Below, piece by piece: positions 6,117 through 7,804 of a DNA stretch of 64,000 nt. A program made the position numbers and the translations under genes. The notes beneath the pieces were generated by a model. The model worked only from the letters and a program-made list of their open reading frames with translations, searched no databases and was not told the origin of the DNA. The stretch is from Cyclobacteriaceae bacterium (lineage in GTDB: Bacteria; Bacteroidota; Bacteroidia; Cytophagales; Cyclobacteriaceae): assembly GCA_019638395.1 (NCBI GenBank), contig JAHBTX010000004.1, positions 680,411 to 744,410 of the forward strand, written 5' to 3'. Position 1 is the first letter of the stretch; the number at the start of each line of letters is the position of its first letter.

Positions 6117-7804
6117 TTAAAAATCAGGGTCTAACCCAAACTTATCCTGCAATTTTTTTAGCAAAGGATTTTTTTCAACCAGCGCATCAAACTTTTCTTT
6201 GTTCGTGTAGGCCATGCGCCTGGTTTCGAACTGTGCAAACTGATATTCCAACTGAATTAAACTGTTATTCAGGTTATCGCGCAAGTAAGTGAGCAGATCA
6301 GATTTAATGGTGTGCAACAACGGTTCTTCCACCGGGTTGGTAAGGGTAAGGTTTATTACATTGTTTTGAAACGTGAAGGGTTGCTTCAATAAATGATACT
6401 CGGCAACCTGGGTTTTCTTTGACTCTGCAAACTCATTCCACACCTTAATAAGTTCTGCTTCTTTTACCGGTTTGTTTTCTTTTGCCGGTGTTACAACAAC
6501 GGGTTTGGTTGTTTCCTCTTTTACTTTTCCTTTTAAAAGGTTGCTGAGGTTTAAAGTAGTCCTGGGCTTATTACTTTCGTCAGCCGTTTTAGCTATCGGT
6601 TCTTTTACAACTTTAGCAACAAGGTTTACGGTTTCAATCGCTTCCGCAGAAACGGGAGCAGCGTTTGATTCAACTACCGGAACGGTATTGGTTACGGGTT
6701 CAATTTTTTTTTTAATCCCTCCTGAAAAGGAGCAGCACCGTTTACTTTTAATACCGAATTAACATGAGCCATTTTCATCAGCGCAAGTTCAACCAACAGC
6801 CGCTGGTTTTTGCTGCTCTTGTAATTCATGTCGCACTGGTTAGCAATATTTAACCACGACAATAAAAGCGATGCCGTGGCTATTGCCGTTTGCTCTAAGT
6901 ATTTTTTACGGGTGCTTTCGGGTACATCCATCAGGTCAACGGTTCGGGCATCCTGGGCAACCAATAAATTGCGCAGGTGATCGCTCAGGCCTACTATAAA
7001 GTTGTGGCCATCAAAACCTTTTTTCAGAATTTCATCCAACAACAAAAGTGGTTGCGCGTGGTTTTCTGAAAGCAATCCATCCACTACCTTGAAGTAATAA
7101 TCATGATCAAGAATGTGGAGGTTGTTCAATACATTTTTAAACGTTACCTCGTTGCCCGATGAAAACGTTACCATCAGGTCGAAGATGGAAAGCGCATCGC
7201 GTAAAGCACCATCCGCTTTTTGGGCGATCAAGTGCAGCGCTTCTTCTTCGGCTTTTATATTTTCGCGATCAGCAACTTTTTTAAGTTGCCGTGCAATATC
7301 CGAAACCTGAATGCGGTTGAAGTCAAAAATCTGGCACCGCGAAAGGATGGTGGGTATCACCTTATGCTTTTCGGTGGTAGCTAAAATAAAAATGGCGTAC
7401 GCGGGTGGCTCTTCCAGTGTTTTCAAAAATGCATTGAAAGCCTGGTTGGAGAGCATGTGTACCTCGTCAATAATATACACTTTAAATTTTCCAAACTGGG
7501 GTGGGTAGCGTACCTGGTCTATCAGGTTGCGGATGTCATCTACCGAGTTGTTGGACGCAGCGTCCAGTTCAAAAATATTAAGTGAGTTTACTTCGGCCCG
7601 CTCCTCAAAACCATTAATCATGCGGGCAACAATGCGTGCACAGGTTGTTTTACCAACGCCACGCGGCCCGCAAAACAACAAGGCTTGTGCAAGTTTGTTG
7701 TTATCGATGGCATTTTTAAGTGTAGTGGTAATATGCTCCTGCCCCACCACTTCTTCGAAACCAAGCGGGCGATACTTACGAGCCGATACCACAAAATTTT
7801 CCAT
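6117..7804 (-). CDS. dnaX: DNA polymerase III subunit gamma/tau, tau made by -1 frameshift or slippage
   Basis: The clamp-loader ATPase subunit. Zero-frame reading from ATG 7804 gives 370 residues ending at 6692: Walker A GPRGVGKTT (46-54), DEVH box, the LSRCQIFDF sensor region and the lid and collar domains, which together equal a gamma protein. The zero frame stops (TTG AAC CCG TAA) just after a run of ten A on the coding strand (6704-6713). The -1 frame is open from the run to 6117 and encodes the linker and the Bacteroidota-type tau C terminus (WNEFAESKK...DKFGLDPDF). One base re-read gives a 562-residue tau. The run is preceded by AGGAGG. A TTG at 7813 is an alternative start. The four-cysteine zinc module normally between Walker A and DEVH is absent. 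A homopolymer sequencing error is the main alternative. Confidence 0.93.
6704..6723 (-). promoter_or_regulatory. Probable dnaX recoding site: A10 slippery run with upstream AGGAGG
   Basis: On the minus strand AGGAGG (6723-6718) is followed by GATT and then ten A (6713-6704), and the zero-frame stop TAA follows 9 nt later. A 5-bp hairpin TACCG-TTC-CGGTA lies downstream (6674-6686). In E. coli dnaX, -1 frameshifting occurs on A AAA AAG with an upstream SD-like stimulator; in Thermus dnaX, transcriptional slippage on A9 does the job. Either mechanism fits here; a run of ten A favours RNA polymerase slippage, while the SD-like box favours ribosomal shifting. Confidence 0.8.

Follow-up and report, generated by a model that had tools for sequence, protein, structure and literature searches.

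A conserved run of ten adenines behind a predicted hairpin in dnaX of Bacteroidia: a candidate programmed transcriptional-slippage element

Several ways of obtaining two products from a single dnaX gene have been described. As outlined in PMC3711429, Escherichia coli dnaX uses -1 ribosomal frameshifting at the heptamer A_AAA_AAG, together with a Shine-Dalgarno (SD)-like element and a downstream stem-loop. In Thermus thermophilus, the corresponding accounts (PMC1088944, PMC5009743) describe transcriptional slippage on a run of nine A's (A9), with tau in the zero frame. The two-ORF type with A10 and a proposal of slippage was already published in 2013, when 17 two-ORF dnaX genes from 12 genera, nine of them with A10, were described as needing recoding for tau (Antonov et al., 2013, GeneTack, PMC3711429); this reversed arrangement is repeated in PMC5009743. 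According to the latter source, the RNA:DNA hybrid measures 9-10 bp and a run of about equal length can realign without mismatch. Outside dnaX, it describes a Roseiflexus IS630 element in which a nascent stem-loop 5'-adjacent to the slippage motif stimulates slippage (PMC5009743).

The window analysed here is a stretch of 64,000 nt from a Cyclobacteriaceae genome, and its dnaX gene lies on the minus strand (Table 1). At the site, the minus strand reads CAG GAG GGA TTA AAA AAA AAA TTG AAC CCG TAA. The heptamer A_AAA_AAA is in phase and valid for a -1 ribosomal shift, and the E. coli-type heptamer A_AAA_AAG is absent, A10 being followed by TTG. The anatomy of the site can be read directly from the sequence, and all coordinates given in the earlier note on this DNA proved right, namely those of the A10, the stop 9 nt further on, the -1 frame open to 6117 and the AGGAGG 4 nt upstream. 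The TAA and TGA close both frames other than that of the tail. Messages with A8, A9, A10, A11 and A12 are predicted to encode products of 561, 367, 370, 562 and 368 aa, respectively, in agreement with the 370 and 562 aa that the earlier note had given for gamma and tau. The N-terminal part of gamma matches PF13177 (E 2.9e-35) and TIGR02397 (380 bits, cut-off 250). The tail aligns with positions 429-612 of PRK14971, a gamma/tau model, at 72 bits, which is below the whole-protein cut-off, as expected for a partial protein, and no Pfam family matched the tail.

Table 1. Features of the dnaX site in the window
Feature	Positions	Strand	Basis or remark
dnaX zero frame: gamma, 370 aa, AAA+ clamp-loader subunit	6692..7804	-	ATG at 7804; PF13177, TIGR02397
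A10 run on the coding strand (candidate slippage run)	6704..6713	-	Sequence; run of at least 9 in 231/276 dnaX loci
Upstream hairpin CTCCT-TTTC-AGGAG, with 5-nt spacer GGATT before A10	6719..6732	-	Predicted fold and class-wide signal
AGGAGG, 4 nt upstream of A10	6723-6718	-	Sequence; 3' arm of the predicted hairpin
Gamma stop TAA, zero frame with templated A10	6692..6694	-	9 nt after the run
TGA in the third frame, hit at once by A9 and A12 messages	6700..6702	-	Gamma-like products of 367/368 aa
Tau-specific tail, -1 frame, 195 aa plus stop	6117..6704	-	Open frame, stop at 6119-6117; purifying selection; PRK14971

A four-cysteine zinc module is usual in DnaX. The window's gene lacks it at 7740-7500 (minus strand, DnaX residues about 45-90), and a simple pattern failed to find it in 31/31 dnaX loci of the same genus, 59/205 other loci of the class and 18/39 loci from other classes of the phylum.

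The tau tail was compared with that of a locus of the same genus whose N-terminal part is 95% identical (L004), giving dN 0.08, dS 1.57 and dN/dS about 0.05. Against 29 relatives, substitutions at codon positions 1, 2 and 3 numbered 2290, 1848 and 3444. These measures indicate purifying selection on the tau tail. Separate translation of the tail by re-initiation could draw on a GTG-started ORF of 108 aa found inside it; alternatively, the tail might be degenerating, with gamma as the only product in use. We consider both extremely improbable, given this selection and the in-frame fusion of the tail in 171/276 dnaX loci, including the near relatives L004 and L007.

These 276 distinct loci comprise 31 from the same genus (window included), 205 others from the class and 40 from other classes of the phylum. 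The near-relative search covered 58 genomes (the window's own and 57 relatives), all of which matched; three genomes of the same genus (G001, G009 and G020) matched only at 1e-11 to 1e-14 and dnaX was not seen there, and three with dnaX split over contigs (G010, G029 and G032) stand outside the counts. Class loci came from the best 150 of 292 matching genomes (30 loci given, plus 79 of the other 120), the 40 loci from other classes were picked from a match list, and 80 further loci are the best 80 among the matches listed, for which species overlap with the rest of the set is possible. Duplicates L062 and L071 were removed, and L086, L229 and L240 run into contig ends. No two loci have identical N-terminal parts, and tests were repeated on thinned sets (96 representatives with <75% identity).

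A run of at least nine A's is found in 231/276 loci, with exactly ten in 188, and falls within codons 350-400 in 230/231. By group, the run is present in 213/236 loci of the class and 18/40 loci from other classes. It occurs in 30/31 loci of the same genus (ten A's in 26) and in 17/20 loci from other families of the order. The zero frame is shorter than 450 aa in 102 loci, 99 of which carry the run, the exceptions being L215, L222 and L223. A tail at -1 after a run of at least nine is found in 92/276 loci, including 28/31 in the genus and loci of many other genera. Homopolymers are error-prone, and the window's frameshift could stem from faulty sequencing or assembly, or be a mutation private to this genome. 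This explanation is refuted by the recurrence of the -1 tail in the genus and in many other genera, and its chance is virtually nil. Thus, the alignment of relatives proposed in the earlier note found both A-run and stop conserved, which rules out a sequencing error, and the conserved arrangement supports, at the sequence level, its view that one gene would provide both gamma and tau. Relatives with an open tau frame and no run, which the note had taken as a sign of error or private mutation, do occur (40 of 171 open-frame loci), but the other 131 keep a run of at least nine.

Among the 231 run-bearing loci, the tail frame is 0 in 132, -1 in 92 and +1 in 7. The run itself lies in phase 0, 1 or 2 in 27, 116 and 88 loci; the encoded residues differ and the run stays. 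Upstream of the run, AAG makes up 962 of 3198 lysine codons. Since the run occurs in all three phases, it appears to be kept as nucleic acid and not for lysines. The tail frame has changed at least 36 times within the class according to a FastTree phylogeny of N-terminal parts, in which weak branches may inflate the count. For example, L004 has A9, tau in the zero frame, and stops in the other frames after 0 and 3 codons, and L007 is like L004 with an N at the run, so that a frame switch is seen within the window's own genus. These changes, the N in L007 and the readiness with which homopolymers mutate would suit replication slippage, in which the run is a phase-variable switch and A9, A10 and A11 differ between cells at the DNA level. 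However, exactly ten A's are found in 82 loci with the tail at -1 and in 103 with frame 0, indicating that most frame changes arise beside the run, and a clamp-loader gene would be an unlikely phase-variable gene. We therefore regard a phase-variable switch as very improbable.

Both non-tail frames are shut within 10 codons in 138/142 loci, compared with 30% for control positions within these tails; the 142 loci are the first 156 minus those without a run of at least nine and minus L086. The larger set gave 217/230 and the thinned set 87/96. In loci with tau directly in the zero frame, the -1 frame closes at a median of 1 codon and the +1 frame at a median of 4 codons (control median 10). These frames bear on a rival route to tau, -1 programmed ribosomal frameshifting on A_AAA_AAA with AGGAGG as an internal SD. 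The valid heptamer in phase at the window site, the tails at -1 in 92/231 loci and the very early closure of the -1 frame in tau-direct loci all fit such a shift, and only 7/231 loci carry a +1 tail, which -1 shifting cannot serve. On the other side stand those same seven loci, the early closure of the +1 frame as well, and the length of the run, as A7 would be enough for the ribosome and the run is ten in 188/231. A -1 shift needs one stop and seven A's, whereas slippage, which generates several message lengths, would explain both the two stops and the long run. Two observations favour slippage over ribosomal shifting: run length holds at ten although phase and tail frame vary, and each of the two non-tail frames soon meets a stop. 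Of the two possibilities named in the earlier note, the comparison thus favours slippage, and we rate the -1 ribosomal shift as improbable.

The +1-tail loci are L026, L122, L148 and L230, with A9 or A11, and L096, L117 and L208, with A10. A homopolymer miscount is possible in the first four. As a group, these seven loci fold most strongly upstream of the run (mean energy -9.57, n=7). If the +1 tails are real, strong hairpins may accompany deletion-type slippage, although the number is small.

A hairpin signal was detected immediately upstream of the run. The 30 nt ending at the run have a mean folding energy of -6.10 kcal/mol, whereas means at other offsets are weaker, from -2.5 to -3.9 upstream and from -2.3 to -3.5 downstream. 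The shuffle z averages -1.05 at this place (p<=0.05 in 23% of the 231 loci) and -0.10 at a control place (6%). The last paired base lies 0-5 nt from the run in 205/231 loci, and loops are mostly 4-6 nt. When arms were exchanged at random between species among the 96 representatives, the native energy of -4.99 weakened to -3.39 (300 exchanges, sd 0.20, lowest -4.02), and the gap between native and re-paired arms at control offsets of 60, 90 and 120 was 0.01, 0.12 and 0.34. Re-pairing weakens the fold at the run, indicating that the arms are matched within species despite their differing sequences. Exchange within the genus gave -7.16 native and -6.10 exchanged, which is weak evidence for paired arms. 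Arm re-pairing was used in place of fixed-column covariation, because the latter was weak: among 32 near relatives, 55.0% of cells are paired in the window's register (shuffles 51.8%), a slide by +1 gives 70.0%, and another register gives 61.7% against 58.0%, with a covariation score of 0.274 against 0.214 that 6/500 shuffles reached. The stem register drifts among near relatives. In the 18 run-bearing loci from other classes, the mean is only -3.34 and the hairpin signal is hardly there.

The earlier note had read AGGAGG as an SD stimulator and had found it puzzling, given the hidden anti-SD reported for Bacteroidota. An AGGAG/GGAGG core occurs within 20 nt upstream in just 20/231 loci (1.7% of control windows), and at -25 to -15 in 2/231 loci (control 0.6%). 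The role as SD stimulator was rejected on this rarity, which also counts against the ribosomal shift. We infer that the excess over control reflects hairpin arms. From these comparisons, AGGAGG is the 3' arm of a predicted hairpin with a conserved position and not a conserved SD stimulator, and the anti-SD puzzle therefore falls away. Downstream of the run, a small folding dip at 6-24 nt (-3.1 to -3.5) lies where a ribosomal stimulator would sit, but it has no sharp peak and a sharp downstream structure is not seen.

Collectively, we consider it highly likely from sequence comparison that the dnaX site acts as a programmed element for transcriptional slippage. On the A10, RNA polymerase would gain or drop A's, with the nascent-RNA hairpin just behind it probably stimulating slippage. 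Message runs of 8 or 11 (and 14 by the same rule) would give tau, with 561-562 aa for 8 and 11, and the templated and remaining lengths would meet a stop within a few codons and give gamma of 367-370 aa. Both proteins would then be made from one gene, and the gamma:tau ratio would be set by the polymerase and not by the ribosome.

The A10 of dnaX is the sole A10/T10 in the window, compared with an average of 5.35 (sd 3.25) in shuffles, suggesting that runs of ten are avoided in the window and are not frequent. In 464 kb of the same genome (window included), one run of at least ten was seen and about 18 are expected from first-order composition. The whole 4.78-Mb genome has 12 separate runs of at least ten (22 overlapping matches). 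Open frames also hold some of the remaining 11, e.g., one frame of 754 aa, so dnaX is not the sole coding case. The A10 in question, at C1:440130-440139 (L304), is on the coding strand at codon 666 of this stop-to-stop frame, within a charged C-terminal stretch, and the gene is possibly a second slippage gene. At C3:10497-10515 (L307), a 19-nt homopolymer lies near the end of its 10.6-kb contig (44 bases away) and is probably an assembly edge effect.

Other forms of dnaX were found among loci without the run, the first of them in Bacteroidales. An in-frame UAG and no run are seen in L215 and L222, which are the genes also labelled L302 and L301. With their relatives, in-frame-UAG dnaX was found at 35 loci, 33 of which (L301, L302, L314-L342, L349 and L350) have a tail of 186-254 aa in the same frame; L338 and L349 have a further open frame of equal length, and in the remaining L351 and L352 the tail lies in +1. 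In 31/33 same-frame loci, the 12 nt from the UAG read TAGATWGCAAGR. Within this stretch, the alanine codon is GCA in 31/33 loci (157/1088 upstream in the same genes) and the arginine codon is AGA or AGG in 33/33 (41/683 upstream). These skewed codons point to selection on the nucleic acid. Folding energies averaged -4.2 to -4.4 for 20-nt windows whose start lies 6-12 nt past the U of UAG, and -0.9 to -3.1 at other offsets. In a candidate stem after the UAG, 74.1% of cells are paired compared with 69.3% in shuffles (0/500 as high), with no compensatory change, and RNAalifold predicted no pairs in the element.

The simplest reading of these sequences is probable programmed UAG readthrough, which would represent another route to tau. 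Genome-wide reassignment of UAG was also considered; 8/33 continued frames themselves end in UAG and rpoB, found in 2/5 genomes, has no internal stop in either of them, which makes reassignment unlikely. A pattern search of 5 genomes for a tRNA with a CUA anticodon, using a pattern without a positive control, gave 9 matches compared with 12 in the reversed control, and ARAGORN found no tRNA at these nine loci. One genome (G542) has two dnaX genes, L339 of the UAG kind and L355 with a 619-aa open tau frame, on C113 and C222; this reflects either contamination or a true second copy. L223 (the same gene as L303) and L348 have no A-run, a zero-frame UAA at about codon 377-383, a tail in +1 and a common stretch before the stop, AGGCAATC...GGAG. 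In these two loci, +1 frameshifting or an error is possible.

The need of bacteria for gamma has long been argued, as related in PMC5009743. With slightly better than an even chance, Bacteroidia dnaX carries a frame-agnostic slippage device, consisting of the hairpin and usually exactly ten A's (about the hybrid length), in which the templated frame drifts freely and the polymerase sets gamma:tau, and one or more Bacteroidales lineages that lack it rely on an RNA element of their own for programmed UAG readthrough. Retention of such a device in many families despite frame drift, and another recoding signal at the corresponding place in a lineage without it, would be evolutionary evidence for a selected pair of products. 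The hairpin-plus-A10 sites may also serve as a natural series for studying hairpin-driven RNA-polymerase slippage. Annotation may label many such dnaX genes as truncated or frameshifted.

In a literature search with most subscription journals outside its scope, no title or abstract among the papers listed treats a dnaX hairpin, the class-wide pattern or dnaX readthrough; class-wide frame drift and the 5' hairpin were not found in print at this level of titles and abstracts. Among described systems, the two-ORF dnaX genes, as presented in PMC3711429, share gamma in the zero frame, a tau tail at -1 on the DNA, A10 and the proposal of slippage. Tau-direct A10 relatives, +1 tails, a 5' hairpin and a class-wide survey are absent from the parts of that account drawn on here. 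E. coli dnaX, as described there, has the same two products and recoding about two-thirds through the gene, but A_AAA_AAG and the SD-like element are not conserved here, the region downstream of the run shows a small folding dip, and tau, not gamma, needs recoding. The Roseiflexus IS630 element, as described in PMC5009743, likewise carries an inverted repeat immediately upstream of the sequence that slips; its motif is T5C5 with one-directional deletion, whereas here the motif is A10 and slippage is predicted. Thermus dnaX, in the descriptions given in PMC1088944 and PMC5009743, resembles the present site in its A-run, in the nearby closure of both alternative frames and in obtaining a short and a long product from one gene. 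It differs in having A9 with tau in the zero frame, whereas the window has A10, gamma in the zero frame and a predicted hairpin adjoining the run.
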